A DNA stretch of 58,881 nucleotides from Dimargaris cristalligena. Taxonomy: Eukaryota; Kickxellomycota; Dimargaritomycetes; Dimargaritales; Dimargaritaceae. Shown here one piece after another: positions 23,492 to 56,032 of the stretch. Position 1 is the stretch's first letter; each line of letters starts with the position of its first letter. The position numbers and the translations under genes are program-made. Under the pieces are notes generated by a model. It was not told the origin of the DNA. It worked only from the letters and a program-made list of their open reading frames with translations, and ran no database searches. The stretch covers positions 1-58,881 of the forward strand of contig JANBQC010000107.1 in assembly GCA_027576995.1 (NCBI GenBank), written 5' to 3'.

Positions 23492-25207
23492 ACGACGACA
23501 ACGACCAAACCCCACAATGGAAGAGGCGGGGGGGTGAACCAGAAAGGAACGTCGTTGCCAGTGGGACCTCTACATATTAAATGGTGATGACCATCATGCA
23601 ATTCTACCCTCGCGATCCAAGAAAATAATCAACGATTATAGACAGACCCCATGATACTTTACTTACCCTCCTCCCCTAACCATCCGGCATTAACCGCGCC
23701 AACCCCTTCGTACTCTATAATTCCCAATACTCTCACTCACCTGCCCTTTTATTACGTCTAACTCACCACTACACAATGTAGCCCTTCTCTCTGTTACACT
23801 CCATACGCTATTTTTTTTTATTCTATGTCTGTTGAACCCTTTCATTTTCTTTTATATTCTTCTTGACTTGACCCTCGTTATTATATCCCCCAATCATTAG
23901 GGCTACCCTATTATTCGTATTTTCTTTTCGAATCCAGCTTTTCAATATATATATATTACTGCCCCCACCCCATTCCACCCCTCCTCCTCACACACTTGCC
24001 AACTGAATCACTGGCCTAGTCTGACCAACACATGTATTATTGCCCAGCCAGGGCGGAGAACTACTTTAATTACCATTAAATCTTCTTGGCCTTTACCCTA
24101 CTCTCTATCGTACCCTCCCCACGCCTGTGGGGGTTTACTGCGTGCGATGTCTAAATATAGATCCATGTGGGAGAAGTTCATCCAAGCTGTATAACGAAAA
24201 ATCCATTTGATGAGGCAGGTACTACTGGTTGAAAATAAACATCCCACCAACTTTCCCATACACATATCGGTTAAAACCTTATACAACCAAGCTGAACTTC
24301 ACTCATGTGCTTTGTAACTCTAGGGTAAACATTTTCCTTGATCGAGACCACAAGTACACTTAGCTATGTAACATCAAAATCCCTTGACCTACCCCCCATT
24401 TCCCTGATTTACCCTGTCCGGGATTATTTTTGGCGCAGTGTAGCGTCAACAGGTAACTGTTGTTATACCGGGATTTGCGCCGGTATTGTCGATGAAGTGG
24501 TGGTTGTGCGTGGGTACACCTGAAATAAATCGGAACATGAGATATTATTTTACTGAATGGCAACTGACATGTTGACCATTGTTTCCAAAGCACTCTCTCA
24601 CGCTTAAACACAATAATGGTCGGACCATGGGTCAATCAACTCCAGCACATAAACCCTTCATTTTATGTAGAAGGGTTGGGGCAATGGGATTAGCAACATA
24701 TTGAGGTTTATTGGAATAATTACATACAGATGCTCCGTGGGATCAGATAAAGTGAGAAGGGGTAGGTGAATGGGGAGGGCATTTCGGATGCATTATGGTA
24801 TGTAATAAAGTTTGGTGAGGGGGGGGGTAGAAGAACCAGATGCCAGTAACGGTAGAAGGTTAAAAAATGGATAGGTAGTGGTTGAAGATTGCGTCCGCGG
24901 GGGAGGTGTGCAGATAGAAGTGAGGTCCGGCCTCATAATTTCGTGGTACTAGACATGGCCGTGAATAACAAACGAGTCGAATAAAGAGAAGAGGGGTATA
25001 AATAATACAAGGCGATTGATCCGCAAAATATAGGGATAAGATAATGGATACTATAAAAGTAATAGAGATGAAGGGTAAACTGGAAGTGCAGCTGGGAATG
25101 AAAAGATACGCGCGGTAAATAGCCTATCCAGGGGTAGAGAGAGAGACGAGCTATCTGGTTGGGCCAGGGAGGTATAAAAGTAGTAGAAGGGCGGGGAGTT
25201 TAGTAAC
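23492..25207. other. intergenic region containing one MITE copy
   Basis: Spacer between SNF7 and the end of the minus-strand CRIB gene. Apart from the 136-bp inverted-repeat element at 24169-24304 it holds AT-rich and pyrimidine-rich sequence, a short G run near 24818-24826, and no supported gene. Confidence 0.5.
24169..24304 (+). mobile_element. MITE copy A (136 bp, imperfect TIRs, 4-bp duplication)
   Basis: Non-autonomous inverted-repeat element. The left end starts GGGAGAAGTTCATCC. The right end read in reverse starts GAGTGAAGTTCAGC, and both ends continue into a GTATAA block, giving imperfect terminal inverted repeats of about 28-32 bases. It is flanked by ATGT on both sides (24165-24168 and 24305-24308). 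Its first 39 bases are identical to copy C read on the other strand. No coding capacity, so movement would need a transposase encoded elsewhere. Confidence 0.85.
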
Positions 25208-26029
25208 TCAATAGAGGTTGAGCGGTTGTTGGGGTACTTTGTAAGTCATGTGTGAAGCAGGGAGATCGATTGATGACGAACCCAATGAAGGTCGTAAGGA
25301 CATCCGTTTACAAGGGTAAAGAGGCGGGGAAAAGGAGAGGTCGTCGTGGGGGTTATTGGGGATCGATTCGTACCCATGGGTCATTTCCTGGGGCGCTACG
25401 GTACTCAAGCCACCAATACCTAATGATTATAAGCAAAAGCCAAGGGGAGACATTCAAATAGGTCAATACCAGTTGGGAAATACGATTGATAATGTATCTC
25501 GAATAGGTGGATACTCTCCCTAGATGCAAATTTGAATAAGAGAGGCGGTGTATCAGTTACTTACCCATATGAGTGGTATGCTAGATACAAGGTATATGAC
25601 ATCGGCAGAAATATAGAATACATGGACATTATGATTCGTTAATATAAAAAAATAGCAGTGCTTATAGGCGGTGATAGCGTGACCAACAGCGGGGGGGAGG
25701 GATCATCGGTTAAGCAAAATATGTGAGCGTAAATTTGGAGGGGATGGATGTGCCAAAAAGCAGATGGTGGTGAAGATCCACCATCTCCCCCATTTGTTAA
25801 ATAATAGCACAGAGGGACTGCAATAAGAAATGAACTCAACAAAATATTAGACATTTACCCGGAAGTTGGTAGGGGCACTGATAACCAGCTTGCGCACATT
25901 ATGTTTGGAGTTCCGCGACGAACGTTTCCGCTTGTGAGGGAGAGAAGAGGGAAGGCCCCTTTGGTCCATGTTGGGGACGTAGCCCAGGCAAGATGTGAAC
26001 AGGCCAGCGAAGGTCATTTTGACTGTCAT
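25208..26029 (-). CDS. small CRIB-motif protein (Cdc42/Rac small effector-like), 132 aa
   Basis: Small predicted effector of Cdc42/Rac GTPases. Three exons on the minus strand: 26029-25859, 25580-25565 and 25419-25208, total 399 nt in frame. Exon 1 ends KLVISAPTNFR; exon 2 is only 16 nt and supplies HTTHMG; together they give ISAPTNFRHTTHMG, which fits the CRIB consensus (I-S-x-P-x-x-F-x-H-x-x-H-x-G). The N terminus (MTFAGLFTSCLGY) with a basic HKRKRSSRNSKH stretch before the motif resembles the membrane-associating cysteine and basic region of CDC42SE proteins. The C-terminal half after the motif (MTHGYESIPNNPH, ending KVPQQPLNLY) is not recognised. A likely role is polarity or actin signalling at the plasma membrane. 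There is a second in-frame ATG four codons in. The microexon has clean AG and GTAAGT borders. Confidence 0.8.
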
Positions 26030-29000
26030 TATGAGATAGGGTAGGAGGTAGCGCAGTGCGGAATAGATAGCACCGATATGTGTATAAAGTGAAATAGAGG
26101 GATTGATGAGTTGGTGAGTTACGGAAACGAATAAGGACAGAAACTAACTACTTTCTCTACATAGGTATATAACAAAAAAACAGATATTGGAGTCAAGGGA
26201 GTTTCACTGCAATAATAGGGAGTAAAACCAAATAGGTCAAGCGATGGAGTGAGGCGGCCATGGACCGAAGTATATATATGAATGGGGCAATCCTGAGGGC
26301 TACATGTCCAAAAAACATCCCAATCAAAAGGAAGAGCAAGGGAAGGAGAGGGATAGGCATCGGGTTGCGCAGACAATCGGCAGTGGTAATTCACAGGGGC
26401 AATCCTTGCTATTATCCGGCACCCGATATGACTGTGGGCCGCAAATAGATAGAGTGGACGGAAAACCAATCTCCCTAGGCAGAGAGCCCAATTGTAGGTA
26501 TTTACCATGCCCCCCTCCCTTTCTCTCTCCACATCCATCACAACAAAATAGGGGATATGGTTGGCATATACTCCAATTTTGGCATTCGCTCAATCGGGCC
26601 ATGAGCACGGAGTAGCTGCAGCAGATGGTTATTCCAGGGGTGGCGAAAGGACTGAATATATGCAGTTAGTAAACTGCATATATTTATTTACCATCATTGG
26701 CTCTTTCCTTGGCCGCCCCGCAATACAAGGGGTCCTCTCTTTTAACCCCACCCCTCAATAATAAAGGATTTGGATAGAGAGGAAAGTGAATTAAGAACCA
26801 CTACTGCCTGAGGTTGTATGGATTGATGATATTGAAATGAAAAGAAAAAGGCCTCTACATGGCGAACAGGGCAGGCTGGAGCGGGGCTTACCTTGTGGAA
26901 TGGGAAAAAGATACGAAGAAGGCTTGGCGAAGGAAAGGTGTTCCCTAAAAGCAATAGGTTGTACAGGTGACACAGTGCGGGGGGTGAATAATTGGTGAGG
27001 AAGGGGGAAGAGGGACAATAGGACTAGGTACAATCAAACCACGCAGTGAAGAGGAGAGAAGGAGAGAGAGAGAGAGAAGTGGGGAGCGCAAATACGGAGG
27101 GTGGATCAGTTAAATACCTTTGTTTTCGAAGAGAACAATGTATGCGGGATAGTCGATGGGGGGTGGACAATCAGGACTTTCTCAAATGACGAACGATGGA
27201 GAATTAAACTGCAAAAACGAATACGAAGACGAAGCAGATGGATACGTGGTGGCCGATGGAGTCGAACAACGAATTAATAAGAGTAGTAGTAATAATAATA
27301 ATGGAAGTAGTAGTAGTGGAAATAGCAGGGGAAGGAGTCGTAAGTACCGATACTAATAATCAAGGGTGGTGGTAGGCAATAGAACAGGGAAAAACGAGGA
27401 CAGGCCAACGCCCGGGCTTTATATGTACAGGCCAGCCGCATGAATGCAGCTAGTTTATTTTCCCCGCATATACACACTCTGGCCCTAAGCTGGGCTCTAT
27501 TTCGGGAATTGGCTCATATGGAATTGTTGAGGGGTGGGTGGTCCCAGCCCAGTATTCTAACCACTGGTTCTGAAAAAACCCAACGGAGTGCTCCTTCCGG
27601 CACCCTTCCCGCAGTGTGAGGGTCACCAGCAGCCACTTTCTCTTCATTATCTCCTGCAGATTCAGCTGCCGCGACGGCTGCTCAATTGGCGCCAAAGTAT
27701 CTGGCGCATACGGTCACAAGCAGCCTTATTCCTTCTCCACTTCATTTTATTGCATTTCGGCTCCGTTCAGTTCAGTTCACTCGTCTATTCCCCCTTAATT
27801 GCTAATGATCTCATGCACTCTCCGTCCCCAATACTAAGGAGCGTATTAGTATTAGTAGTAGTCGAAGGGGTGAGTCTAGAATATGAACAGCCTTTGTGCT
27901 TCATGAATAAAATACAGAACCGCGACCTTTCCCCCACAGCGACAAAGGGGGGGGGTGGCTAATTGTGTGCGGTATCCGTAATAAAGGTGCAGCGATCCCA
28001 ATATTTTTGCATCCTGCGGTTGACTTGTCTCTGTGCGGGTGTACGTCAATGGGTCGGATCCGCCTTTTCCGTTTGACTTCCAACTAATGCAAGGCCCGGC
28101 AGTCAGGGCCGCTGCCCTACGGATAACTCCGCCAGCTGATCTTAATTTTGGTTTGGACAGCTGCGCTAGGAAATAACCAAAACAGACCAGAATAGGGCAA
28201 TAGTTGTTATGATTTTGCCAGGGGCTAGCAATATATTGGCAGGGTTAACCCACCAATGGGTTCGTTCGACTTGCCCTCCTCCTTCGCCAATCGAAGCTAC
28301 CGCTGGGCGAAGCCTTCTCGATATCTCTCTCTCTCTCTCTCTTTACGTAGCGACGGGAACTCTCGGTAAATATTTGGCGAATCACCCTCGTCGTTCTCTG
28401 TCTATCCTGAGAAGGGATCCCTGTCGTCTTCAGAAACTGGACATGGCGAGTTGACAGCCTAACGAGAAATCAAATCAAAACAACGCAGGCCGTTGTCATT
28501 TCCAATGATGGACGGGGTGCCAACTTAATGTCCAATGAAAAAAATGTATATCTATATGAAAATGAAAATGGTAATGAAATCCATGCCCAACGGCTCCTCA
28601 AGGTGCCACTGCCGAGTGTGTATTATTGATTACACTTGAATATATATATATATATATATATAACATTTATTATATTTTAGTATGGAATAACATGGTAGAT
28701 CCAGGAGAAAGGGATTGGCCGTCTCCCCGTGGGGTGAGGGAAAATGTCTCTGGCTTCTCACTGACTACCTCCCCCCACTCATACAGTCCGGCTCTCCCAT
28801 TTACCCTCTCATACACCTGAATCTGCATGTAACCCAGCTAGTTTGGCTGTGGGTGTCAAGCTCCCCTATTCCACATACACATATACGCGCACGCACATCT
28901 ACCCTACCACTACTCCCCCACCCCCGCCACGACTGAGCCCGTTAGTGCTCTACTGTGCTCGCTCCGTCATGGACCCACTGCTAGAAAGCCACTGCAAATC

Positions 29001-33059: not shown

Positions 33060-33897
33060 GGTGGAAAGTGTAAATTTCAATTTATATGTAATAGCCAACG
33101 GTGGTACGTGGTATGGCCCCGATTTGAGTAGATGGGAACAGATGTCTAATGTCGGCGAATGAACGTGGTGGGGGCCAATCAGAAATTAGGGTGAAATGGT
33201 GGGGTACAGGGAATGAATAAAGTCTGTAAATTGTCTAATATAACCAGTCGGAATTGGAGTGTGCCATGGAGGTTAGGAAAATGTGGAATGTGCTCAGCGA
33301 GTGGATTCAGTTTTCCAATCCAACCCCTCTAAACTTCGCGAAGGCACTTTCTGGCCCTCACGAAAAAGAACGGTTGCTTTTTTTCCAACTCTACTCAAAC
33401 AGCACCGGTACCCCGAGCTCTACGCTAAATACCTCGTTTATGAGTCCAACTGGCTTGGTTACCCTTGTAATCAGAGCTGGTTTATTAATGACTTATTTAC
33501 TAGTTTGCTACTATCCAGTCGGCGTAGCATGGCTGGAAAGTCAGTGGCGTACGCATTTGGAAGTCCCACGACGACCCACTGGAGGTTAGATCACAATTCG
33601 GATGTATGTCTACACATGTAGCCGGCTTACACGGCGCCACAAAGGTCCCAAATGACGCTTAGTTTGTAATATCCATAACCCGAGTAAACAAACCCGCGGT
33701 TTTCGGCTTCCATTAGGGTGAAATCCAAACCAGCTGTATAAGGTTTTACATAATATATATATGAGGGAATATATGTGAGAATAGCTTTTAACTAGTAATA
33801 TTGGCCTCATCCAATGGATTTTTCGCTATACAGCCTAAATGAACTTCTCTCATTAGCAACCAGTACTTCGTCCATTTAACGTTCGATAAACGCCCGG
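33060..33897. other. intergenic region containing one MITE copy
   Basis: Spacer between the SSU72 start and the end of the oxidoreductase gene, both on the minus strand. Two overlapping plus-strand frames of about 110 codons (33254-33621) have no recognisable product. MITE copy B lies at 33716-33851. Confidence 0.5.
33716..33851 (-). mobile_element. MITE copy B (136 bp)
   Basis: Same element as copy A in inverse orientation. The plus-strand left end is GGGTGAAATCC and the right end is GAACTTCTCTC; internal GGATTTTTCG and TAACTAGTAATATTGGCC blocks match copy C. It is flanked by ATTA on both sides (33712-33715 and 33852-33855). Its right end is 46 bases from the stop codon of the FAD oxidoreductase, so it may lie in that gene's 3' untranslated region. 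Confidence 0.85.
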
Positions 33898-35652
33898 CTA
33901 AAGCTTACTGGGTACTTCAATACCAATTTCACGCAGAGCCTGCCGGTCACTACCCAAGATATCCCACTTCTTCCCGGTCTGGCCCACCCGGGCAGCGGGT
34001 CGGAAAGTCTCGATTAAATCACCCGTGGCAAACGCCCTTCCTTCTTTTCCGAAGTGCTGGTTCAGGACCATACGGGCCACGATATCCGCACACTGATATG
34101 CCCGGGGCATACCGTCCCCACTAAACCCCGCACAAATAAACTGATTCGACAGATCCGATTGGAATTCCGCCAAGGGACCCACCCACGGCAAATAGTCCGA
34201 ACTGAACCCCATGATACCGGTCCAACTCTTTGCTACCACTAGAGGGGTTTCCCCCCGGAAAGAAGACGCATAGGAATAAGAAGAAGCTGATGAAGGGGGA
34301 GAGGCGGGAGCGGAAGCAAAGGCCCGGGATCCAACTCGGAGAAGGGCCGACCGGAGGGCCCGGTCAATGGCGGGGTTGACCTGACCATCGTCCGACTGGT
34401 CCACTTCCATGCTGGGCGTAGCATACCGCATCCCGCCGAAAATGACCATACGGTCGGGGCGTTGCATACCGTAGTCGAAACCGTGGTTGAAACTCGTCCC
34501 GAACGACCAGAGTCGGGGGGTCGTGAACCGTTCGGTGGCAATCACCTGGGCCCGAATGGGTCGGATAAGGGGGGCCAGGGCGGGGAGGAGGTGGCCGGCC
34601 CAGGCGTTGGTGCAGTGAATGACGTAGGTGGTTCGGAGGTTACCTCTAGGCGTGGTGACTAGCCATTGGGGTACGGGCGACGACGTAGTGGTGGTGGTGG
34701 GTTGGGGGGTCACACTGGTGACGGGAGTGTACGTTTGAAGATTAAGACCCTTGGCGAGGGCGAGTTCGACAATGCCCCAAACTAACTTGGCGGGCCACAG
34801 TTGGCACCCCGGGATTTTAATGGCACCGATAAAAGCATCCGATTGGTAACTCTAGGTCAATAATAATAATAATAATAATAATAAGCATATAGGTTTTTAG
34901 AACAGGTGTTGGTTAATAGTAGTATACGCCCCAGGGTTAAAATAGTACGGGATTATAAAGAACCAGTTGAAAAAATGGATCTCAAGAAATGGCCTCGTTT
35001 CCGTTTCTACCATACACCCTAATGTATTATCTGGCACCCTCGTATAAGAATACTATAGGCATACGTGGTTCCCTGACCTCCCGGGTCATTTTCGACCTCA
35101 AGCGACGTAACTCACCTTTTGGCACTGTTCCCGGTCCCACACTTCCGCTGGAATCCCGATACCCGCCTGCTGCATCGCCCGCCAGTCCGCCTGCAACGTT
35201 GTCCATTCCATTTCCGTCTGCGCTCCCAAAACACAACCGTTCAGCCGCCATTCACAATCAATGTTATACTTCTTTACCAGCGCCTGGAGCTGCTCTAAGG
35301 TGCGGTGTTCGAACCGGGTGATTTGGGCCGTGGTAGCAAAACCGTCGCTACGGACCCGTTCGTTAAAGTACCGGCAGTGCAGGGGAATAATGTGGCCGCC
35401 GTTCCGGCCGGTAGCGCCGGAGCAGGTTTCACGGGCTTCGAGAACGACCACCCGGGGGGCGGGGACCCCGGCCGCCCGTTCCTCGGCAAGGCGGAGCAGA
35501 TGCCAGGCCACCGAAGCACCCGCAATACCGCTGCCGATAATCACCACGTCGGCTTCGGATGGCAGGTGGGGCGTGGTACGATGCGTCTTGAGAGGGTTAT
35601 GCTCCAGCCAAAAGGGCGTCAACGGGTTGGGGTTAGGTAGACCAGGGTCCAT
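33898..35652 (-). CDS. FAD-dependent oxidoreductase, DAO family, 496 aa
   Basis: Two exons on the minus strand: 35652-35116 and 34851-33898, joining in phase 0. The start ATG gives MDPGLPNPNPLTPFWLEHNP. The FAD-binding Rossmann fold follows: DVVIIGSGIAGASVAWHLL (GxGxxG) near residue 36, the strand-2 acid in VVVLEARETCSGATGRNGG, and the GGHI flavin-contact region. Exon 2 carries the substrate-domain strands, YVIHCTNAWAGHLLPAL, GMRYATPS, and the C-terminal FAD contact GFSGDGMPRAY. The domain order is that of the DAO family of amine/amino-acid oxidases and fungal relatives such as Tda3. Substrate cannot be read from sequence. No signal peptide or peroxisomal C-terminal tripeptide (it ends PSKL) is certain, although a C-terminal KL with preceding S is somewhat PTS1-like. 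An AAT repeat lies in the intron. Confidence 0.9.
34859..34883. repeat. (AAT)n microsatellite in an intron
   Basis: Eight trinucleotide units just inside the intron of the FAD oxidoreductase gene, close to its 3' splice site on the minus strand. Confidence 0.9.
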
Positions 35653-36998: not shown

Positions 36999-37116
36999 GG
37001 TTGTGGCCATATTCGCGTGTTAGCACCGTATCCCGTTAGATCTGCGCAGTTAAGTACGTGTAAGCCAATTTAGTACTGAGGTGGGTGACCACTTGGGAAT
37101 AGTTGGTGCAACAACC
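36999..37116 (+). rRNA. 5S ribosomal RNA (118 nt)
   Basis: The ends GGTTGT and ACAACC pair to form helix I of 5S rRNA. Inside, the diagnostic blocks occur in order: TGGCCATA, GCACCGTATCCCGTTAGATC, AGTTAAG, TTAGTACTGAGGTGGG and TGACCACTTGGGAAT. The usual GAAGTTAAG reads GCAGTTAAG, a small departure. A run of five T (37117-37121) directly after the 3' end fits RNA polymerase III termination. The gene lies alone, away from any other rRNA gene, as in many fungi with dispersed 5S genes. It contributes to the large ribosomal subunit. Slight divergence means a pseudogene cannot be ruled out. Confidence 0.9.
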
Positions 37117-37121
37117 TTTTT
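37117..37121 (+). terminator. Pol III T-run terminator of 5S rRNA
   Basis: Five T residues directly follow the ACAACC end of the 5S gene, the standard signal for RNA polymerase III termination. Confidence 0.75.
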
Positions 37122-37548
37122 GCAGATTCTTCATTACATTCAATTATTTATTTTTTTAATATAAAAATAAACAAGGTACTGGTTTGCTTGAGGCTGCAAG
37201 GATGCCTCCCATCAGGTATTTGAGACCTGTGCATGGGGCTACCTCATTGCTGTATATTAAAGTTAGGTGAGTTTCATTTATTGGTATTATTGTGCTAGTT
37301 ACCTAGAATCACATAGTACTGGGGCCACAATTGTACTTTTTCCTAAGTGGTGACGAGCTTCAGCTACAGCAAGTCCCGGATTACAACATTAATGCACAAC
37401 CCGATTTTCTGAGATAGGAAAAATATTGACTTTTACCTCCTAAATAATTTATGGAAGTAAAATAGACATCAGATACTTAGTAGGGGGGGGAGATTATCGA
37501 TAATAATTTGCCTTGTGAAAAAAGGTGGTTTGTCGGGTATTGTAGAGC

Positions 37549-40243: not shown

Positions 40244-41764
40244 CTACCCCATAATCGAAGTCCTGGCGGTGTTGTGGCTCAGGTTTTGGGACTCGAAGTA
40301 GATGGTGACCAGACCAATGGCAACCTCGATACAAATCAGGATAATCACGATCCATTCGAGGAACTCGCCGTGGTTTCCGTTGAGGTGTTCACGCAACATG
40401 TCCAAGAGGTCACTGATGACACTCACGCGGTGGTTCATGATTTCGGCACGCTGGGAAATTTCCAAATAACCGCGGATGGCGTCGTAGAGGGGCTGGAGGG
40501 ACGGTTCGGACCAGAAAATCTCGGGCGTATCGAGAATATTACTGACCAGGTTGACGTTGATGCGCATGATAAACAGCTGACCAATCTTTTTGATGATAGC
40601 CGAGCGGGACATCTTGACCCGGCCGGATTTGGCCATCAACTGGGGAATGTGCTTGGTGTCGTTGATGGTATCTTCGACCAGATCCTCGTACAAGGTCAGT
40701 TTGACGGACTGAGCAATCGCGTGGGAGATGGCCATCTTGACCATATAGTTGCGGGGGTGGCGCAGGCGAATGACGTCGTTGTAAATCATAGGGGGGAAGT
40801 TGGGGTTATAATACAAATTGAATTCCTCGATTTCAATGTCAATGGCATCCAGGGACTCGACCTCAAACCGCCGGAGTTCCCGCAGGGTTTGCTTCTCCTC
40901 CTCCTGGGTCATGGCCCAGAAGACGATGACACCGTAGTCAAAGACAAACACCTCGCTGGTGAGGTGGTCCTTGATGAGATCAAAGTAGTCGCTCTGGTTG
41001 TCGGTACCGCTGTCCTTACGAGCGGCCATTTCGGGGGACATGGTATCGTAGGTCACTGAGGTGGACAATTTAAGGCCCTCGCGGGGGGTAGTGGACGGGG
41101 ACAGGTCGACCAAATTGTCACACTCAGCGTTCCTTGTCGAGGTTGGGTTGCCAATGGGGATACTCCGCTGTTTGAACGTGAAGGGGGAGTACAGGCACTC
41201 GTCCATCAATTTGGGGGCGGACTGGCGCGACTCCTTGCGCGACTGCAGGTAGCGGAACACGGCCTTGAGGTCGTAGGAAGTAGCGGTGCAGTAAGCGGTG
41301 ACGCGAGGCAGGGTATCCCGACGGAGTTTGCGCCAGCGTTCGGCGTCAATGAGGTGGGAGGTGCGGTCCTCGTTGGTGAGCTGGTTCAGCTGGTTGTATA
41401 CGTCGTCACCGCCGTAGAAGCTGCTGAGTACCTGACCCGGCTGCTCCTCGGCCTCGTCGGGGAATAACGCTAATTTATGCGAGGTTTTGGAGGTTCGGTA
41501 GGCCGACTTGGTCTTGCTCATCCCACGGTTGAGCACGTTGACGGACTTGGAGCTGGTCATGCGAGGTGGGCCCCGGCGGCCGGCGGAGGGGCCTTCGAGG
41601 CTGTGGTTGCTGGAGGAGGGGCTCAGAGTAACGGGGGCCTGGGCCAGGGGGAAGGCAATGCGCTGGGTCAGAGACGCCGAGGGATTGGGGATTCCGTCAC
41701 CGCTTTCGAGGACCTGGTAGTTGCCGCGGGACGGCCGGCGGAAGCGTTTAGTGATACTGGCCAT
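40244..41764 (-). CDS. DUF155 family protein (RMD1 / Sif2-Sif3 / RMND1-like), 506 aa
   Basis: Uninterrupted minus-strand gene starting at ATG (MASITKRFRRPSRGNYQVLE). The first 130 residues are Ser/Pro-rich and probably disordered. From about residue 150 the DUF155 fold appears: RVTAYCTATSYDLKAVFRYL, then VFVFDYGVIVFWAMTQEEEK, AIDIEIEEFNLYYNP, the helical LRHPRNYMVKMAISHAIAQS, LTLYEDLVEDTI, a SRSAIIKKIGQLFIMR segment and EIFWSEPSLQPLY. A single C-terminal transmembrane helix lies in EWIVIILICIEVAIGLVTIY. This is the layout of yeast Rmd1/Rmd8 and S. pombe Sif proteins and of the metazoan mitochondrial protein RMND1, which supports mitochondrial translation. Without a clear targeting peptide, the cytosolic or ER-anchored fungal subfamily is more likely than the mitochondrial one. 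Molecular function is not established. Confidence 0.92.
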   Translation of the reverse strand: MASITKRFRRPSRGNYQVLESGDGIPNPSASLTQRIAFPLAQAPVTLSPSSSNHSLEGPSAGRRGPPRMTSSKSVNVLNRGMSKTKSAYRTSKTSHKLALFPDEAEEQPGQVLSSFYGGDDVYNQLNQLTNEDRTSHLIDAERWRKLRRDTLPRVTAYCTATSYDLKAVFRYLQSRKESRQSAPKLMDECLYSPFTFKQRSIPIGNPTSTRNAECDNLVDLSPSTTPREGLKLSTSVTYDTMSPEMAARKDSGTDNQSDYFDLIKDHLTSEVFVFDYGVIVFWAMTQEEEKQTLRELRRFEVESLDAIDIEIEEFNLYYNPNFPPMIYNDVIRLRHPRNYMVKMAISHAIAQSVKLTLYEDLVEDTINDTKHIPQLMAKSGRVKMSRSAIIKKIGQLFIMRINVNLVSNILDTPEIFWSEPSLQPLYDAIRGYLEISQRAEIMNHRVSVISDLLDMLREHLNGNHGEFLEWIVIILICIEVAIGLVTIYFESQNLSHNTARTSIMG

Positions 41765-44700
41765 GGTGGAAAGGGTTGTCTAATAATATGAGAAGAAAGA
41801 AGGGGTAGAATAAAGGGGAGAACACAAGAGAGAGTTTGTTGTATTCAGCGGGGTTGTATGCAGGTAAAACGGGTATATGCTGCTGAAGTGAGGGTTGAGT
41901 TGAGTTGTACAAGAGGAGGAGGGCACAGGAGTGCTGCGGGGGGTTAGGCTCTGACCAATAGGCGAATGAACTAGAATAAGAGTGAATAAAATGAATGGTT
42001 AGGTTGACGGGGAGGCGGAGGGGAGCGGATTATATGTATAGAAGAGACGAAAGGAGGGGCGTAGGCTACAGCGAGAGTCTTGGAGAACCGAAAGAGGCGG
42101 ATTAGCATTCATCCGCTCTTTGTGACCCTTTCGGCGGCAGCAGCAGTGCGGTGTAAATGAGCAGAGGCAACTTAGAAGCCGCGATTGTCACATAGATTAA
42201 ATGGCATTCTCATCGACACCTCTCCCCCCCTGTACCGATACTGCATAATGGTGCGAATCTCGGTAGTTATTTAAATCATTGAGAGCTAGATGGAGAGCCG
42301 ATCATTCGACGTTTACGGGGAGAGAGCCCCCAGCATGGGCAAGGTAATGAACGTTATAGTATTCGAGCTGGAGCAGTTGGCTAGTCAGCATCTACCCGTT
42401 CGTTCGAGAGTAACCGGGAGGCGTAAGGGGTGCTGCTTGCGACGGGTTGGATATTGCCATGCCAAGGTCGTCATGGTTACCCAAGATATATACGGCGGTA
42501 TGGTATGTATCGCTAACGTCATGAAGGGGAGGGGCGGAGTGATAGTGACACGCACACTCTCGCTCTCATAACTGCCCAATCTCTTTAACCCCAAGGCCCC
42601 TTATTTCACACTGGTTATTAGTAATACGCCATTACCTATCTCCTCCCTGCCGTCCGTTCTCTGGATTGCTGCTTCTTGGTCAATCCTATTTCGCCACCCC
42701 TTTGGGTTAGTTTGGCGCCTGCTGTAGCTCTGTGCTCTGTAGAGTTGTTTTAGTTTAGTTTTGTTGGTATGGTTCGAGTTGTGGGGTGAATCCCAACCTC
42801 CTTTTGTTCCCCCCTGGCCTTACCTTATCCTATCGCCAGCCTGGGACTCCATGGTCTAGCCATTCCGTTAAGATAAACAGGGTAAGGGAGAGGAAAGTCG
42901 ATACTTTAGAAATAGAATAACCCCTTGCCGGCGAAATGCGGGTCTATTAATATGGGTGAAATTCAGCCCAGCTATATAAGGGTTTACATTATATGTGTAT
43001 GGGAGAATATATGGGAAATTTATTTTTAACTAGTAATATTGGCCGAATCTAATGGATTTTTCGTTATACAGCTTGGATGAACTTCTCCCATATCCATCGG
43101 CAGTAGACAAAGTCGCAAAGAAAGGGCGTATATGCGCCTAGAAAGGATTGCCAGATGCTTTGACTCCCGGTTTTGGGGAGGGGTTAAGCACCGCCAAAGT
43201 TTAAATGGTCCCGAACGAATACTTTTGTAGGGCTCGAAGGAAGCACACCCATGTCAAACGAAACAGCGGTGGACTTGTTCTCCTCCCTCTCCTGGGGTGG
43301 GCCGCCCTCTACAAGGCATAAACATAAACATCATGTACGCATAGAGCAGCGGAAGTGAGGCTTGATTTAATGGCAGCGGATAAGGAGAGGAAAAGGTGCA
43401 CAAGGCCTGAAACATCCCCCACCAACCGACCGTTCACGTGAGTCAATAGCAGCAGATGGGTTGGAAAAAAACAGGCTTGTGCGTTGTTCCAGCCAAGGTG
43501 AAAAAAAGACACCTCTAACCTATACTTCCTCTACATTCCACCCATTAGTGGGCTGGGGCTATAGTGTGGACCAAGCAGACTGACAGAGTGGGCCATGATC
43601 CCAATCCGACTTGGCCATTGGATGAGGGGGGCCTAGATTAGGTTGGTGGTATATTTTCCGGGAGGTTGGGATTCCCAATGGTCCCACCCCACCACCCGAA
43701 TGTATGCATGGATGAATGAATGGTTAACATCCACAGCACACGCTCGCTCGCCCAGCATGGTGGGAGACGCGCAGATACTATTTGGGCCCTCCCCTTTGAA
43801 GGCCCCCATGGTTAAGTTGGCTTAATGTCTGCATAACCGAGGTCCTTCCTTCTTTCCTCATTTTTTCCTTATAGTCACCCCTCTATAAATCTGACAGTAT
43901 ATGTAAGTCCACCGCCCAACAACGCGACCTATCCATCCATCCATCCCCCTAGTGGGTGCGGGGCCGGGGTCTTCGATGATACTTTGCCCCGAACAGACGA
44001 ACGGCGGAGGCGTCCATCCATCCACCCACCCAAGACGGGAGTCCGTATGACCCATACGGAAGGGGAAACCTGTCGACTGCTATTTCCCCCTGCATAACTC
44101 CGAGTAGATTCGTTTCGTCGGATGGGCCCACTTAATCTCGCCATGAGCCGATCCCCTTCGCGGTTACGATCCTGACATTCCCGACATGTTCCGATCCCGT
44201 TGAAGCGACCTAGGATCCCAAGGATTCGCTTTTCCTTGGCCTTGCCCTTGCCCATCCCTAGCCTCATCTCACTATGGTGTTGGCCATGACCTGTCTCTGC
44301 CTCCGGTTATTATTCATGGATATATTGCCGTCGAGCAACCCGTATATATAATATATTTATATATATTATTAGGGGGGTATGGAGTCATCGTAACGTCTCT
44401 CGAATGTCAAGCGCAGATGGGGTTCTCTGAATCTCCCTATCGAATCTCTACCGCGTTGGAGGATGTTGTTATAATTGTCGTTTATATATATATGAATCGT
44501 TAACCTGGGGTCACCTTCCCCAAGGAGTAAAACGCAGCTTTGGTCCTCGGTATGTTGTCCAAGCTGACTTCGGTTCTTCCCTCGCCGCACAAGAATTCAT
44601 TTGCAATTTCCCTCCTGTTGATCCAAGTCCATCCGGGATCGGAATGTGCAGTAGGATCTCTCTGAGATTGGTATACGGCGAACGTGGACATAGCCGTAGG

Positions 44701-45988: not shown

Positions 45989-47749
45989 ATCTACCGACAC
46001 TCCTCTCCCCTCATTCCCCCTCTTAACATCAACTTCTGAGATGTCGGGTGGGCTAGGTGTATGAGTGAGTTGTCTCTTTTCCTTGAGTCTTTTTTTCATT
46101 TGGATGTTCTTGGGCGCGGTGTATAACCAAAACCTCCCCTTTCCTAACTAATCTATTATAGATTAACATGTAAACTTCCTCAAGGTTCTTCACTTCCACT
46201 CTTTCCCGCGCCTTTGTCCATTATAACCCCCAATTACGCCCCTCCTCCCCCTCCCTGTCCCTTCTATAAACAGTCAATTTTCTATACAAGAAACACACCC
46301 TCCCTCAAATCAATTTTTCAATCAACATCCCCTCCGCTCACTTTGTTCACCCTTGTCTAACCAATATCTCCCCTATCCCACCCTCGATGCTCCGTGGTTG
46401 ACGGGTTTGGTGACTCGTGGTCCATTTTTTTTTTCAACTTTTTTGGCTTTCCGTTACCTTCCTCAATACAGGTTTGATTTCCCGGCCATTGTCTGGTATG
46501 CTTAGTGTGTTTATGGTTTAGTGAGGAGATGCTGCCTCAAAATTGATGGTTGTGGATGAATGTTCGGATGCCCCTTTCGATTGAAGGGGGGGGTCCTCTG
46601 CTCAACGAAGTAGTATACCATTGTAGAATCAACAGGTAAAGTATTTTAAGATAATGGTTTGTGGCCCAATGTGAATATTTCGTCTAATAGGTAATTTCTT
46701 GAATTTAAATTCGAAGGAGTCATGTTAGCGTATCACAGATGGTTTATAATTCAATAACAGAGAGAGTGGGTCTATTATATGACCAGCTCTATTCCACATA
46801 ATTGGCTATTAGCCTCCTGTTTCCATTACACGGACTTGGTCGTGAAACATTTATTAGCCTATTCATTTTATCTTCTCCGCTCTTCATGGCGAAGAAATTC
46901 AACTCGGCTCCATAGTGAAATATTCGCTTAATGAGCCGGGCTGTACTGGTTAGGCCCCCAGTCTCCTCACTAATTAGGCTTTTCGAAAATTATTGCAATT
47001 CTTGAAAGATTGTGTTAAATTTCATCTATATGTATTGTATGCTAAGCAGTGCAGACACCATCTATTTGTCATGCTTACCTATTTATATACACTTCCCCAT
47101 TTTCCTGACGTGGCAGCCCCCCCCAGTCACAAAGCAGTAATTTCTTGGATATTCCTAAACTAGGTACACTTTGGGAAGTTCAGTTTACCTCCCTCCTATG
47201 CTTTTAACCATACCTCAACTTCTTAGATGGACTAATAAATATCCCGAAAGCCCTGTTTATTTTTCGGAGGTCTGGCTACCTCGACTTGACAGCTGGTATC
47301 ATCGGACTTGGATCCTAGTGAGGGGTTTTAGTCAACGTATCTTCAACTAATATAACTCACCGCCATTTCTCATCCAGCGGATTTCTTCACTCTACAACCA
47401 GATCGAGCCTCTCCCATACTGATGTATCACCTACCAAGCTCCTTCATTTTATCTCAGTTGGATTTTAAAAGGGGGTATTTAGTAAATTGCAGGCAAGCGC
47501 AGTGGTAATATTTCGGCTAAGAAAAACAGAAATACAGAGTACAATGGGGAGTATAGAAGAAGTCACAGCAGGAGGAATGCGGAGGGACAGTATGACAATA
47601 GTTATAATAGCAATAAAGTGTAAATGAAAAGCGAGTGGACCTCGAGTCAAGGGGGATGCGTCGTAAATACCATCATGAGGACGAGAAGTCTCGTACGTGA
47701 TACCCTCCCTTCCCCCCTTTAGTTCCGAATCAGTCCGCCGAACCACGCT
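45989..47749. other. intergenic region between convergent genes, with a diverged MITE
   Basis: 3' region of RPS2, pyrimidine-rich to about 46.4 kb, then AT-rich sequence with a diverged MITE-like copy at 46890-47026. A minus-strand frame of 93 codons at 47465-47746 directly follows the proteasome beta6 stop and is probably its 3' untranslated region. Confidence 0.5.
46890..47026 (+). mobile_element. diverged MITE copy E (about 137 bp)
   Basis: The 5' half (AGAAATTCAACTCGGCTC, then TTAATGAGCC and TACTGGTTAGG) aligns with copies A and D across roughly 70 bases at reduced identity. The 3' end AAATTTCATCTATAT resembles the AATTTCACCCATAT end of copy D. Spacing between the two ends is within one base of the 136-bp length of the other copies. 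No clean flanking duplication remains. Likely an older insertion. Confidence 0.5.
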
Positions 47750-48808
47750 CTAATCCTTCTTGAGCTCGTGAATCTGTTCCTCGACGCCCTCCCGGGTAAT
47801 GATGAAGATTTGTAAATAATCACCGGTGTAAATATCCCGTTCGGTAGCCGACGTGAAGGAGTCCTTGCAAATGCGGAGGGCCTCGGCCAGCGGCAAAGGG
47901 GTGACGGGTTCGAATTCGGTCACTTTGGGTTTACCCAGTTGGTTCTTGTTGCGCACCTGGTTATCCAGGAAGGGCTGGATCAGGGCCGACGCGGACCCAA
48001 AGGCACTGCAAGGGACCCGTTCGTAGGAACCTACGGCGTCGTAGCTGTACACGCAGCCCTTGCCGTCTTCGTCCAGACCGCCGAGGATGTTGAAGTCGTA
48101 GTACGGGAAGAAGCGCCGCTGGTACAGCATGATGGACAACATCTGGGCGATGGCCGAGGTGGACATTTCCTTATTGTGGTTGTGTTTGTAGGTCAGCATG
48201 CTTTGCTTAACGCGGGTGGTGACCATGGCGCAGTCAGGCTGGCAACCGGCGGTGGCCAGCACGGATTTGTTGGAGCTGGGAGAAGATAAATGTGAGAGGC
48301 AGGGTATGAATATGTAATCGAGGTTAGTGCTCGTCCCGTATCTATATCCATACCGTATAGCGAATTCATGTAGTATGTCTGGAGAGGGGAGTAGCGAAGG
48401 GGATGTTATACAAACCCAGGGAAGGTTCAGGGAAGGATGGGTGCACTTACAGCTTGAAGGTCTTGGGCGCAAATCGAGTATTGATGTTGTATCCGTTGCT
48501 CTGACGGGTATCACTGGCCAGGAGGCAGTAGTCTGGTCCAGCAATGGCCAGGTTCGTGCTATAAATCAATAGGTTGGTGGTAATAATATAAATAAAGAGG
48601 GCTATTGCTTTAGAGTAGTTCGTTTATAGGCATATGGTGTGTTGAAGGAGTAGCGGCCGATTTTCGAGTACAAGGCTGGGTTTGCGGTGTAAGACTACGG
48701 GTGGATGGAGGGTGTGACTTACCCGCCGTGATCTTCATAGGGAGAGAAGGCGGCCTCCTTGGCCTGCGAAGTAGGATGAGTGGAGGGTCGCACATGCATG
48801 GCGTCCAT
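47750..48808 (-). CDS. 20S proteasome subunit beta6 (PSMB1 / Pre7), 239 aa
   Basis: Three exons on the minus strand: 48808-48723, 48558-48451 and 48275-47750; total 720 nt in phase. It starts MDAMHVRPSTHPTSQAKEAA and continues FSPYEDHGGTNLAIAGPDYC, LLASDTRQSNGYNINTRF, as in yeast Pre7. The family signature follows: YQRRFFPYYDFNILGGLDED and GSYERVPCSAFGSASALIQP, LDNQVRNKNQ, then LRICKDSFTSATERDIYTGD, ending EEQIHELKKD. Beta6 is a structural, catalytically inactive subunit of the inner rings of the 20S core. It does not need N-terminal threonine activation. Lies head to head with the beta5 gene 730 bases away, so the two may share a promoter region. Confidence 0.95.
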
Positions 48809-49538
48809 GTTGGGCTAGATGGCGGTGGCCGCTGGGTAAGGGAGAGGACTGGAGGGGGAATAAGTAAGTATCAGGAAGCCCGAAAGCAATGTAGTAGCTT
48901 ATTGGAAAGTCAAGGGATAAACGGAAATGAACTTCGGGGGATGGAAACACAGATGCAAGGCTGTTCGTCAAGCAGGGCCTCCCGGCTTAGACTGACGATC
49001 GCTCTCGCTGGGCGATTCAAACTGCGCAGAGTGCTCTATGCGTATGCGGGGGGGAGAGTAGCATTCCCCCCCATTAGTCAGACATCATGGTGGCCTCCTT
49101 CCTTTCCCCCTTCATTAATACCAAGTCACCTGACTGGCTCATGAGTATAGAGGAGAGGGTAATACCTTCCCCGCCAATGTATTCTCCTCTCCCACACCGC
49201 CTATTCCATTCCACCACCATCACCTCCGCCTAGCTTGGGAGTTGTCGGATGTGGACGCATTGACTATAGGTATAGGGTGAGTTCAAAGAGAGGACAAGAG
49301 GCACCCATATCCAGCTCCGCTTACTCAGCCAACCACACTCTGCCTCCACTTTATCGCCATCTCGCACGGTAGGTTGACTCGGCCTCGTTCATTAATCTTC
49401 TACTATTCCATTTCCGCTTCTATCAATCCGCCCATTCCCATACACTATAACACTCCATCCTTCGTGCCGCATCTCCCGTTTATTCACTAGTTTCAGTGAC
49501 CGTCCTTTATCCAACCCCACAAACATAACCAGGGAACA
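48809..49538. promoter_or_regulatory. shared upstream region of proteasome beta6 and beta5
   Basis: 730-base intergenic region between the divergent start codons of two 20S core subunits. GGTGGC-containing sites at about 48824-48829 and 49088-49093 resemble the first half of the yeast PACE element (GGTGGCAAA) but lack the AAA, so no Rpn4 site is claimed. The beta5-proximal 150 bases are pyrimidine-rich, as in other leaders of this window. Confidence 0.4.
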
Positions 49539-50834
49539 ATGCTGAGCGAAATCGTCGCCCAATACACTTCGGAGCCTACCGGCTACGGGGCTGAGCTGAC
49601 CCCCGGTAACTTCCTGGCCCGCGATGCTGCGAAGCAGTTCGATAGCCTCTCATTCGATCTGCCCAACGCCGAGAACGTAAGTCGCATTCCAACTTACTCC
49701 CCGTTGCTAGGCACCCCTTATATTGTGACTATCTTCAAGTTCGGCTTATTTAGTGGACCCGCGGGCGTGTCCAAATATAGGTATTTGCAGTATGACCTGA
49801 ATAGACCGGGTCTTTCTAAAGCGTCTATCTAATGAGAAGGGTATGTGATCTAACCCTAAAACCAATCCCATCACCCCCCCCTCATCCTATTACTCTACCC
49901 CAGCCCATCGACTTCTTGAACACCTACACCGATGTCAAATCCGACAACGACAACCTCATCAAGCTAGCCCATGGCACGACCACTCTGGCCTTCAAGTACG
50001 CCGGCGGTGTGGTAGTAGCCGTCGATTCGCGGGCCACCCAGGGTTCCGTCATCGCCTCCCAATCCGTCAAAAAAGTCATTGAGATTAATCCCTACCTGCT
50101 GGGTACCATGGCCGGTGGTGCGGCCGACTGTTTCTTCTGGGAACGCGAACTGGGCCGTCGCTGCCGCCTCTATGAGCTCCGCAACAAAGAACGCATTTCC
50201 GTGGCCGCGGCCTCGAAGCTCTTGGCCAACATGGTGTATTCCTACAAGGGCATGGGTTTGTCCATGGGTACCATGGTGAGCGGGTGGGATAAGACCGGCC
50301 CGAACCTGTTTTACGTGGATAACGACGGCACCCGCCTCAAGGGGAATTTGTTCTCGGTGGGATCCGGTGCGACGTTCGCGTACGGTGTGCTGGATACCGG
50401 CTATGATCACGAAATGAATAAGGCCGATGCCATTGATTTGGGCAAACGATCCATCTACCACGCCACCCACCGGGATGCCTACTCCGGTGGTTATGTACGA
50501 AGTAAGTACCCTCTTTTGCTGTTCTATATAGTTGGTTTATTCGGTATTCTAATCTCAGTATACCTAAACTCTATTAAACGGGGCCGCCTCTCCCCCCATA
50601 TATATATATGTAGTTTCATAGTCAGCTAATCAGGCCACCTGGAGCCCCCCCACCATACGGTCGTATAGCCTGGCTAACTCCCATTCTACCTTTTCATTGA
50701 ATCACCTACCCCTTTCACCACCACCACTCTCAGTCTACCACATCAACAAAGAAGGTTGGGAATTCATCAGCCTTACCGACGTCGACGAGCTGCACTGGCA
50801 GTACGCCGATGAGTCTCGCAACCGCGGGGCTTAA
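49539..50834 (+). CDS. 20S proteasome subunit beta5 (PSMB5 / Pre2), chymotrypsin-like, 278 aa
   Basis: Three exons: 49539-49676, 49904-50501 and 50734-50834, all in phase, total 837 nt. Exon 1 and the start of exon 2 form a propeptide of about 70 residues. It is cleaved after Gly in [13 protein letters not shown], exposing the catalytic Thr near residue 71. Active-site partners are visible: the Asp in VAVDSRAT (D17) and the Lys in SQSVKKV (K33). Further family blocks are [80 protein letters not shown] and [10 protein letters not shown]. The last exon gives [11 protein letters not shown] and ends RNRGA. This subunit provides the chymotrypsin-like activity of the 20S core and is the main target of bortezomib-type inhibitors. 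No sign of decay. Confidence 0.96.
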
Positions 50835-51353
50835 TTGGGTGTACACTACGAATATGGTTTTTTTGTTTGGGTTATTTTATTAGTTATCCCTCTGAACTGT
50901 GCTACTCGGTTATCCTGGTCGGCATCAAATGGGAAAGTGTGTAACTCTTTGGTGGAGAGAAAGCCATACCCTGCCTCGACTTTCCTCAATATCATCATCA
51001 GGCACCCGCTGTATTAATCTATATATTCTCTCGGCCATGGTTTTACGTTATTTTCTATATCTTTTTTTTTTAAAATAAGAATTAAAAGATAAGATAAGAA
51101 ACACATCTACCATACCAAGATCACAGCTTCAAATGTAGTTTGACCCATCTCTGCCTCCATTTTTATTATTTTACTCGACCTTAACCGGTTCGCCATTCCA
51201 GGAAATAAACCACCTTCTCTACCATTGGGTGTTATGTTATATAGTTTCTTATAATTTTGGTTTTCAAAATGCAATTCCTGGATTTATTGAGCTCATTCGG
51301 GAACCATATTTATCCATCGCCATTTATATACATCTGCCAAGTCTAGGACCTCC
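50835..51353. other. intergenic region between convergent genes
   Basis: AT-rich 3' region between beta5 and the end of the F-box-like gene, with an A/T-rich stretch at 51059-51100 that may include polyadenylation signals. No further gene seen. Confidence 0.5.
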
Positions 51354-52978: not shown

Positions 52979-53644
52979 TTCAGTCGCTTGTATTAAATTA
53001 AGGAGATACGCGTAGTACAAGGTCAATGGTAGAAGAACCTATCATTAATAGAAAAAATCAGTGTCAGTAGACAGAAAAGATAAAAAGCACCAGTAAAGGG
53101 GGGATCAAAAATTACTTGACGTGCTAGGTTGGCCATGGCTGGTATTTAATATTGACCCCTATGGTTAAGATCCGGAGCATCTATCCTTGTTTACAGGTCA
53201 GTCATGCGAACTGGGAACCACAATAGCCCGCTTTCGCTTACTCTATACTCCTGCTGATGGACAATGCCATCTGGTTTCGGAATCACGGGTGCCCTCCTGA
53301 CCAGCTGCCACACCTCCTCGACTCTACAGGGGCTATATAATAAATATTGCGAAGTATTCATAAGTTGAGATAACCATTAGTTGGCCCATTTACTGTCACA
53401 CTGCTGATCAAAAGTCGCAGAAGCAGTGTTCATTGCCGCGACAGCTACAATCTACACACAAAACTGGTTACTACCTTTATGCCAGGCGACCCCGGCCAGT
53501 CCAGCCAAAGTCCACAAAATCACAATACTGATAGTCTAATATCATACAGCATTATTAAATAATCGATAATAATAGTAATAATCATATAGTGAGCCGCACC
53601 ATCTCGAATATCACAAAAGAAAAAAATTATGGTTCAACAAATAA
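52979..53644. other. intergenic region
   Basis: AT-rich spacer between two minus-strand genes, with scattered short repeats of AAT type near 53553-53585. No gene seen. Confidence 0.5.
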
Positions 53645-54805
53645 CTAATGATTAGTTTTCATCGAATAAGATTCCGAAATCTTAATGTCGTCGGGGTCTA
53701 CCACACTTTCCAATCCGATTTGTGAGCCAGTGGTTATGGGTGGCATGTCCAAAAACGTGTGCTGCCGGTACCCCCGGGGCTGTTTCGGAGCCGTTTTCCG
53801 CAAACTTTGCTGCCGACGGATCGTTTTAAATAGACACCAGCCCACAACAATTAGTAGCAATCCCACCACACCTGAGACCGTGCCCGCCACAATAGCCAGG
53901 GTGTGGTTGGAAGTGGCGGTGGTCGAGACCGCTTGGCCGTGCTCCATGACCCGGGCCCTAACGAACAGCCGGCGGTCCAAGTTCGAATCACTCCAAGGGG
54001 GGGTGGTGGTGGAGTTCGCCAGACCTCCGTCGGGGACTACCACCAGATCGGGGTATCGGTCGGTGACTTCAGCCCACGGTATTTGCGGGTCCGAAAGGGC
54101 ATCTGCTAGTGCTGCCAAGTGGGTTCCCTGCTGGTACGGAATCACGACGCACGGGCAATTGGCGAAGACGCCAATGTCGCGGCATTGGTTATTATCGCCC
54201 GACTGGTAGACGACGAACAGGTTGACTTGTTTGAGGTGACTGGCTGAAGGCGGATAGGTCGCCTTACCGTTAATTTCCTCGACCAGGACGACATACTTGG
54301 CTTCAGGGATCAAACTGTGACTAGTAAAATCCTCAAACTTAAGCAAAAGCCCCTTGGTTAAGAAGAAGGTGTGGTGTAAATTGACATAAATGGGCACATA
54401 TATAATGGGGTAAATATAAATGATGGGTTAGCTTTATGATTCGTGGGCATATTACTTATTCTAGCAGGGAGTTGGGGTAGGGCTGCGTGCCATCATCTCC
54501 AATGCACCCATGATATTGTAATAATTTCTAAGTCTGTAAAGAGCATCAAGAAAATCTACTAAACGTTCGCAACAGCTGTATGTCGTACTTACTCCTTCGG
54601 GTAATCGTATGTCACTATCAAGGCGAACAGTCAAGGTCGTATTGGCAACGACTGAGGTGGTTAGGTTCAGGACAATGTCCTTGGAGTTGGGGTTTAGCCG
54701 AACAACATCCCCGAATAGGGTTGTATCAGTACAGGTGACGAAGTTAATGTGAAGTAAAACGAGAATAAGGCCGATAAAAAAATATCGATTGGGTGGCGAT
54801 GGCAT
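53645..54805 (-). CDS. type I membrane glycoprotein of unknown family, paralogue 1 (306 aa)
   Basis: Two exons on the minus strand: 54805-54593 (213 nt) and 54352-53645. It begins MPSPPNRYFFIGLILVLLHI with a signal peptide likely cut after FVTC. The lumenal/outside part has FGDVVRLNP, an NLTT glycosylation site, KYVVLVEE, LFVVYQSGDNNQC, a Cys-rich CPCVVIPYQQG and RRLFVRARV. One transmembrane helix follows (LAIVAGTVSGVVGLLLIVVG, WCLF), with a stop-transfer KTIRRQQ and a cytoplasmic tail of about 60 residues. The fold around KYVVLV and LFVVYQS is reminiscent of a protease-associated (PA) domain, but that is a weak resemblance. A paralogue with the same structure lies upstream (56033-57155). Function unknown; a sorting receptor or cell-surface role is possible. 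A longer frame upstream lacks ATG. Confidence 0.75.
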
Positions 54806-56032
54806 GGCGGATTTGTCCGACTGGAAAGTAAGAGCAAACTGGGTTGACCAAAACCCGAAAAAACAAAAACAAATCGTATACGCAAACAATTGGATACTGT
54901 AGTAAATTCGATATTCCGATATTAAAACATCACTAAAAGTAGGCCTCTAGGAGCCGAATTATAATAACTGGTTGAAATATAAATCATTAGACAAGAAGGC
55001 GCCGTCAAGAGCAGCATACATATTCACACTAAGGGATAATGGTCCAGAATAAGGATGTGAAGAGGGGAATGCCAATTGACTGGCATATATTTCGGAAACG
55101 GCTTCTTCGTCCGAGCAGCTTTTTTATGGGCCTTTTTGACAAGCCCAGTGGTGGGTTGGAAAAAGCGTGTACATTCCTGGAGTGAAACGATGATCTTCCC
55201 TTGTGAGCAGGAGTGGAAACGTCTTTATTGATTATCCAAACTGACTGTGGCCTATTTGATTTAATAGTCGTATTGGCGTGGTTTGGGCCATTTTTCGCCA
55301 TTTAGGATAATCGTGAAGCGTTGGACAATCACTTTGTAAAACGAGAGTTTAATGCGCCAGTCTAGGATAGATACGGGGAACTACCAGAAAATCTGACTTG
55401 TTGTAGTTTTATTAAAAATTCTAGCTGAACGCAAAAGCAAAGCGATTGATTGCTTTTATTTAGGGAGGCAATAGGGGAACTGTTACATGATAATGTATTC
55501 GTCTGGGTGAGGAATAGCATATCCTTGGTGCTGGCAGGGCCACTTAGAGTATGGAGGTTCTGTTCACATGAGAGGGGTTCAACTGGACTGGATAACGAAA
55601 AATCCCCCTGACGAGGCAGAAACTACCGGTTAAAAAGAATTCTCCCGGGTATTATCATATACACACATCATTTAAAACCTCATACTGCTGAGCCGAATTT
55701 CACCCATATTAAGTATGTTTCCTGGACGGAGTGTTTTCAGCAAATGTGGGAGCTTTCGCCGAATAATTAGCCAGAACCAACCAAATTGAACCGAATTCCA
55801 TGCTCGGTAATAGCGAAAATCCACCCTCTCCTCCTCCTTGGTCTAGCAAGGTATTTCAAAGCATCTCAAAATGACCTATGCAGAGATCTGCCCCTTCGGC
55901 GTAGCTCCCTAAAACTAGAACCATCCTGCCTAATCTAATAAACTGGTTTCATAACACCCACTAGCATTTTTCATAATAGCGTTAATAAAACACAGGATAC
56001 ACCACAGGCCAATTTATATAGTACCAATAGTA
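54806..56032. other. spacer between tandem paralogues, containing one MITE copy
   Basis: About 1.2 kb separating the two membrane protein genes. It contains MITE copy D (55570-55705). An ATG frame of 90 codons on the minus strand at 55029-55301 (MAKNGPNHANTTIK, basic) has an unconvincing resemblance to eL29 and is not annotated as a gene. Confidence 0.5.
55570..55705 (+). mobile_element. MITE copy D (136 bp)
   Basis: Same orientation and exactly the same length as copy A. Left end GAGAGGGGTTCAACTGG, internal GATAACGAAAAATCC and GACGAGGCAG blocks, right end GAATTTCACCC. Flanks are ACAT (55566-55569) and ATAT (55706-55709), one mismatch, consistent with a decayed 4-bp duplication. More diverged from A than C is. 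Confidence 0.8.

Follow-up and report, generated by a model that had tools for sequence, protein, structure and literature searches.

A dispersed repeat of 136 bp was analysed in a 58,881-nucleotide stretch of DNA from Dimargaris cristalligena, a mycoparasite of the order Dimargaritales (excerpt of PMC6784888). The stretch, called the window throughout, is contig JANBQC010000107.1 (C107) of an assembly of 27.1 Mb and 779 contigs (GCA_027576995.1). An initial annotation of the window had described four full copies and a diverged fifth copy of a miniature inverted-repeat transposable element (MITE). All four full copies could be read directly off the sequence, each 136 bp long, two on either strand and with the same flanking tetramers. 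Copy A (24169-24304, or 24165..24308 with flanks; plus strand) lies between direct duplications of ATGT, copy B (33716-33851, or 33712..33855; minus strand) between duplications of ATTA, and copy C (42954-43089, or 42950..43093; minus strand) between duplications of ATAT; their nhmmer scores are 130.5, 126.5 and 130.3 bits, respectively. Copy D (55570-55705, or 55566..55709; plus strand; 103.3 bits) is more diverged than the other full copies of the window, and its flanks, ACAT and ATAT, differ by one mismatch. Copy A and the reverse complement of copy C are identical over their first 39 bases. The fifth, old copy at 46890..47026 (plus strand) has weak profile support (24.7 bits, E 3.8e-6) and 4-bp flanks that do not match. 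A possible additional fragment of the family, absent from the earlier list, was seen at 47337..47415 on the minus strand (nhmmer with --max, 16.8 bits, E 2e-4).

To follow the repeat through the genome, copies A and B were used as queries, giving 935 and 800 first-look candidates, respectively, with 40 scored per query. The relatives of copy A were up to 99% identical to it. An nhmmer profile built from the four window copies was iterated over 90 sources (the window and 89 fetched loci, L001-L089; 311,616 bases, some overlapping) and returned 117 matches, of which 103 are full-length. In the whole genome the 12-mer GGGDGAARTTCA occurred 793 times (410 + 383), against 19 occurrences (11 + 8) of the reversed control, and because of this excess the dispersal is not due to chance. 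The sampled full copies carry 0.79-0.96 of these 12-mers each. Roughly 800-1,000 recognisable copies are estimated for the genome, which amounts to about 0.45% of it or one copy per 28-34 kb. These figures are rough, as similarity guided the choice of the sample. The density of about one copy per 12 kb given earlier thus holds for the window (four full copies in 59 kb, or five if the diverged copy is counted) but not genome-wide, the window being some two to three times denser than this rough figure.

Statistics were compiled on 96 distinct copies, each complete at both ends and with 30 bases of flanking sequence on either side. The set leaves out partial matches, copies truncated at the edge of a locus and repeats of one copy in overlapping loci. 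The length is exactly 136 bp in 78 of these copies, too short for encoding a transposase. GGG opens 83 copies and CCC closes 73, and the ends follow GGG(A/T)GAA(G/A)TTCA. Imperfect terminal inverted repeats are present as described before, with 21-22 of the 28 outer positions pairing in three subfamily consensuses.

Comparison of the flanks of these copies bore out the 4-bp duplication. Identical 4-bp flanks were found in 80 of the 96 copies, against a mean of 57.3 and a maximum of 63 in 200 shuffles of the right flanks. Flank identities of 1, 2, 3, 5, 7, 9 and 10 bp were not above the shuffles, and those of 6 and 8 bp amounted to one copy each. ATAT made up 67 of the 80 perfect duplications, and the AWWT type as a whole 72 (with AAAT in 3 and ATTT in 2). 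Since ATAT is its own reverse complement, flanks of ATAT are weak evidence when taken alone, and the 23 copies with another tetramer on the left are the informative set. In 13 of these 23 the same tetramer follows directly on the right (ATGT in 5, AAAT in 3, ATTT in 2, and AGAT, TAAT and AGTT), and in none does its reverse complement. The preference extends beyond the duplicated bases: the 80 copies with perfect repeats share the palindrome A-W-n-C-[ATAT]-G-n-W-T, with W at -3 in 71, C at -1 in 42, G at +4 in 35 and W at +6 in 75. Such symmetry would be expected from a dimeric DDE/D transposase cutting the two strands 4 bp apart.

Insertions of the family into itself provided empty sites. At L076 a subfamily-A copy lies within a subfamily-B copy, its target being the host's own CACATAT; deleting 136 bp together with one ATAT leaves a host of 136 bp, identical to the B consensus at 128 of its 136 positions. 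The converse arrangement is found at L054, where a 136-bp B copy within an A copy has the non-palindromic AGAT on each side, and the restored host is again 136 bp long, with 123 of its 136 positions agreeing with the subfamily-A consensus. L057 carries two head-to-tail copies with a single ATAT between them and ATAT outside, and the single central ATAT fits entry of the second copy into the duplication left by the first. Such nested and head-to-tail copies are possible because ATAT borders most insertions at either end and because CACATAT occurs within many copies (32 of the 96). Together, the arrangements at these three loci are the strongest evidence for movement of the unit with duplication of 4 bp.

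Nearest-neighbour divergence among the 96 copies ranges from 0 to 43% (median 3%), and the family thus includes very recent as well as very old copies. Where two copies are at least 98.5% identical, their flanks are unrelated in 49 pairs and related in none; the presence of near-identical copies at unrelated sites indicates that movement was recent. The main subfamilies, A and B (38 and 35 of the sampled copies), are distinguished by 34 of the 136 positions; a third, represented by 6 copies, departs from them at 29 and 20 positions. A branch with a 5-bp insertion was found in seven places, six of them full copies of 141 bp and one, L047, cut by a contig end. Shortened members were also observed, namely a 126-bp copy at L056 and a 79-bp version at L094 (G000:C63, near 53900-54030) that keeps both ends and has ATAT on each side. 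The MITE at L016 (943-1381), from a diverged subfamily, is interrupted by an unrelated A+T-rich insert of about 300 bp with ATAAT at its flanks; judged by eye, this insert is perhaps another small mobile element.

The repeat is almost certainly a MITE, a 136-bp non-coding DNA transposon, as had been proposed; its consistent ends, uniform length, 4-bp duplications, empty sites and unrelated flanks all agree with this assignment. A DDE/D cut-and-paste transposase encoded elsewhere would bind both ends of the element, excise it and reinsert it at sites resembling ATAT through cuts staggered by 4 bp, and repair of the gaps would produce the 4-bp repeats. Insertion of the family into itself would then give the nested and head-to-tail copies.

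Several observations weigh against this picture. Mobility is inferred from the copies themselves, no transposase having been found. Target preference alone could also yield the 67 perfect repeats that are ATAT. The 4-bp flanks are imperfect in 16 of the 96 copies; some of these have one-base mismatches or are old and one, at L055, has one extra G at the element end, while L046 and one copy at L053 have plainly differing flanks. The sample is biased, as the 96 copies are mostly those that scored best in BLAST against copies A and B, with neighbouring copies added, so that young copies and subfamilies A and B are over-represented. The A-B differences appear clustered, with 2 in positions 18-48 and 12 in 67-86, and appear to lie away from the blocks 18-48, 87-95 and 104-117, which were chosen by eye; a runs test did not support the clustering (p = 0.09), and constraint on the interior is therefore not established. 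Finally, the longer relative described next has been seen at one end only, and its assembled part (at most 1,694 bp) holds no recognisable protein.

The initial annotation had proposed, as a check, looking for a longer relative that shares the ends and carries a transposase; a candidate relative was found, and no transposase was seen. Three copies of a second, unnamed repeat among the fetched loci have an outer stretch of about 38 bp in common with the MITE and a different, longer interior. They lie at L029 (823-2516, contig C731), L050 (1500-1653, contig C378) and L051 (1500-2079, contig C395), and run off their contigs 1,694, 154 and 580 bp after the start, respectively, as long repeats behave in fragmented assemblies. 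The first 38 bases match the MITE consensus at 30 (L029), 29 (L050) and 26 (L051) positions; when both strands of the window were scanned for at least 26 matches of 38, four positions were found, the same number as the full copies. L050 and L051 start after ATAT, as the MITE does, and depart from it after about 54 bp, beyond which the interior is unrelated. L050 is 88.7% identical to L029 over 159 bp and L051 69% identical to L050 over 120 bp, and L029 and L051 are alignable over perhaps 300 bp. An extent of 235-266 bp for this repeat, suggested by eye, was not supported, since the L029/L051 homology persists beyond it (score 52; shuffles at most 48; 0/300). Three open reading frames (ORFs) of 77-122 amino acids in the L029 stretch gave no convincing Pfam match. 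A longer element with a MITE-like end thus exists, and may be either the autonomous partner or another passenger. The proposed enzyme would move this repeat as well, and the repeat may lead to that enzyme.

Near several MITE loci there is also a separate dispersed repeat, which has no MITE-like end. Its pieces, 76-80% identical, are found at L051 (about 1818-2079), L003 (520-261), L052 (2319-2075) and L049 (62-221). The tail of L051 from about 324 bp inward was read as this separate repeat because L003, L052 and L049 match it but do not have the L051 end.

Seven pattern searches of the genome were carried out in which an element end was kept and the bases that follow it in the MITE were forbidden; as the patterns demand exact matches, a diverged partner would be missed. 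The outer 12-mer pattern gave 10 matches against 5 for the control, none with an AWWT flank (L039 has ATAA). Left ends diverging after position 36 or after position 66 gave no matches, and those diverging after about 48 gave seven, all with the same letters, which correspond to the branch with the 5-bp insertion. Right ends diverging after about 28 gave five matches, of which L048, L049 and L052 are MITEs and L050 and L051 are the longer relative; both matches to right ends diverging after about 37 are MITEs, one of them nested. A relaxed end with an AWWT flank gave 15 matches against 4 for the control, three resembling, by eye, MITEs with a one-base deletion. When the other 12 relaxed-end loci were fetched with about 0.6-1.2 kb of inward sequence, a second end was present in L094, the 79-bp version, and in L096, a diverged copy. 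Scanning of 10 of the 12 ORFs of at least 120 amino acids from these loci revealed MscL, a prenylcysteine lyase, an ABC transporter and a zinc finger below the cut-off, with six left blank and no transposase among them. Nearly all the pattern matches that could be judged are MITEs, degraded copies, genes or chance. Protein models were also applied. PF25273, tried on a hunch, was silent in the Dimargaris genome and in 14 of 14 control genomes, and is hence uninformative; PF13359 (DDE_Tnp_4) had no match in the Dimargaris genome, a weak negative, as the control was positive in 1 of 14 genomes.

An enzyme of the Sola2 type is the leading guess, held with somewhat less than even confidence, since AT-rich 4-bp duplications and short terminal repeats match published Sola2 features. 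Sola2 elements start with GRG. Published Sola2 duplications are AT-rich 4-bp sequences of the form AWWT (ATAT, AAAT, ATTT), and the terminal repeats are of 12-13 bp or imperfect and of 21 bp (excerpt of PMC3627910). The likeness to the Sola2 families of Dictyostelium fasciculatum (DFa) and Polysphondylium pallidum (PPa) lies in the set of AT-rich 4-bp duplications and in the short terminal repeats. Unlike the 136-bp Dimargaris copies, these elements are of several kilobases and encode a transposase (888 amino acids in DFa-2) and Fanzor1, according to the same excerpt (PMC3627910).

A transposase outside Sola2 is an evenly balanced proposition: the MITE could be mobilised by a PHIS enzyme (PIF/Harbinger-Nuwa), by Ginger, piggyBac or CMC/Chapaev, or by an undescribed superfamily with a 4-bp stagger. 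In favour of this stands the failure of the searches above to bring up a transposase. NuwaI elements usually open with GGG, as the 136-bp element does, and CMC duplications are of 2-4 bp (excerpt of PMC4482050); PHIS duplications are of 0 or 1-4 bp overall, and Ginger and some IS481EU elements make 4-bp duplications (excerpt of PMC10045372). Against PHIS stand its groups with the 3-bp motifs ANT, CWG and TNA (excerpt of PMC4482050) and, weakly, the silence of the DDE_Tnp_4 model in the genome. Within the NuwaI/NuwaII group the likeness extends to terminal repeats that usually open with GGG or GG, but the duplications there are of 3 bp (CWG; C|TNA|G) (excerpt of PMC4482050). Ginger was discarded, as it needs the terminal dinucleotides TG..CA and the ends here are GGG..CCC; piggyBac, which needs a TTAA target and CC..GG ends, was discarded in view of the ATAT targets and the GGG..CCC ends.

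A more specific account of the MITE can be offered tentatively, and remains rather doubtful. In this early-diverging fungus the 136-bp MITE and the longer repeat would belong to a whole group of elements that have their ends in common, served by a transposase either of the Sola2 type or of an undescribed type that recognises the ATAT palindrome. The MITE would have kept one length through about 25% divergence between subfamilies, spreading partly into its own duplications and into an ATAT within sister copies.

That the copies multiplied through segmental or tandem duplication instead of transposition is very improbable. Clusters and head-to-tail copies do occur (L057, L076), but flanks are shared in none of the 49 near-identical pairs, target duplications and empty sites exist, and at L057 the head-to-tail copies have one ATAT in common, the arrangement predicted where a copy enters a duplication already present.

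Still less credible is a dispersed structured-RNA gene, or a retroposon derived from RNA in the manner of a short interspersed nuclear element: the constant length and one 4-bp hairpin kept in RNAalifold (93% of cells paired, one pair changed on both sides) would suit it, but the hairpin energy over 94 copies, -0.7 kcal/mol, compares with a column-shuffled mean of -0.6 (standard deviation 1.0), the reverse strand of the same alignment has zero consensus hairpins, ARAGORN with the bacterial code found no tRNA gene, Rfam at the gathering score found in the window only a 5S rRNA gene located elsewhere and, at a lax threshold applied to copy B only, nothing up to E = 1, and the 4-bp duplications and inverted ends argue against an RNA origin. 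The motif TGATGA in the left block had suggested a box C/D small nucleolar RNA, an idea given up since subfamily C does not have this motif. The outcomes that the initial annotation had named as contrary to its proposal, inconsistent ends and duplications or a structured RNA, did not arise.

Other features of the window were also recorded. Copy B lies 47 bp past the end of an ORF with a DAO (FAD oxidoreductase) match (33898-34713, minus strand) and could sit in its 3' untranslated region. The 5S rRNA gene (36999-37117, plus strand; Rfam, 94.5 bits) is isolated among protein-coding ORFs, and this suggests that 5S genes may be dispersed in Dimargaris cristalligena. An ORF with a DUF155 (RMD1-like) match occupies 40244-41764 on the minus strand and has its best protein matches in Dimargaris cristalligena itself. 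With a partial entry of 395 amino acids it aligns over 430 columns, 35 of which are gaps, at 91.6% identity, so that 394 of the 395 aligned residues agree; two further entries under this species name are about 80% identical. This single gene makes Dimargaris cristalligena the probable host. Two ORFs with Proteasome-family matches, on opposite strands and about 1.3 kb apart, are located at 47750-50629.

Among described MITEs, BmMITE-10 of the silkworm has the same ATAT target duplication and is listed as novel, and differs in its length (258 bp), in its ends (CGTCGCTG..) and in sequence (excerpt of PMC2997013). CMITE of Acropora corals, a group of piggyBac MITEs, resembles the Dimargaris family in having a conserved interior and possible tandem arrays, but has TTAA duplications, piggyBac-type ends and a piggyBac partner, and the available excerpt shows no sequence relation (PMC2872659). 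No description of the 136-bp family was found in the open-access literature among the matches listed, and a shallow literature check gave, among the matches listed, no paper title on transposons of Dimargaritales. The repeat is thus a recently active and apparently undescribed MITE family of a well-known kind. Its analysis documents a numerous, recently active DNA transposon family in the mycoparasite Dimargaris. The exact ends, the target palindrome, the young copies and the three longer copies at contig ends make the missing transposase a concrete target, and alongside BmMITE-10 the family supplies a fungal example of a MITE that targets ATAT.

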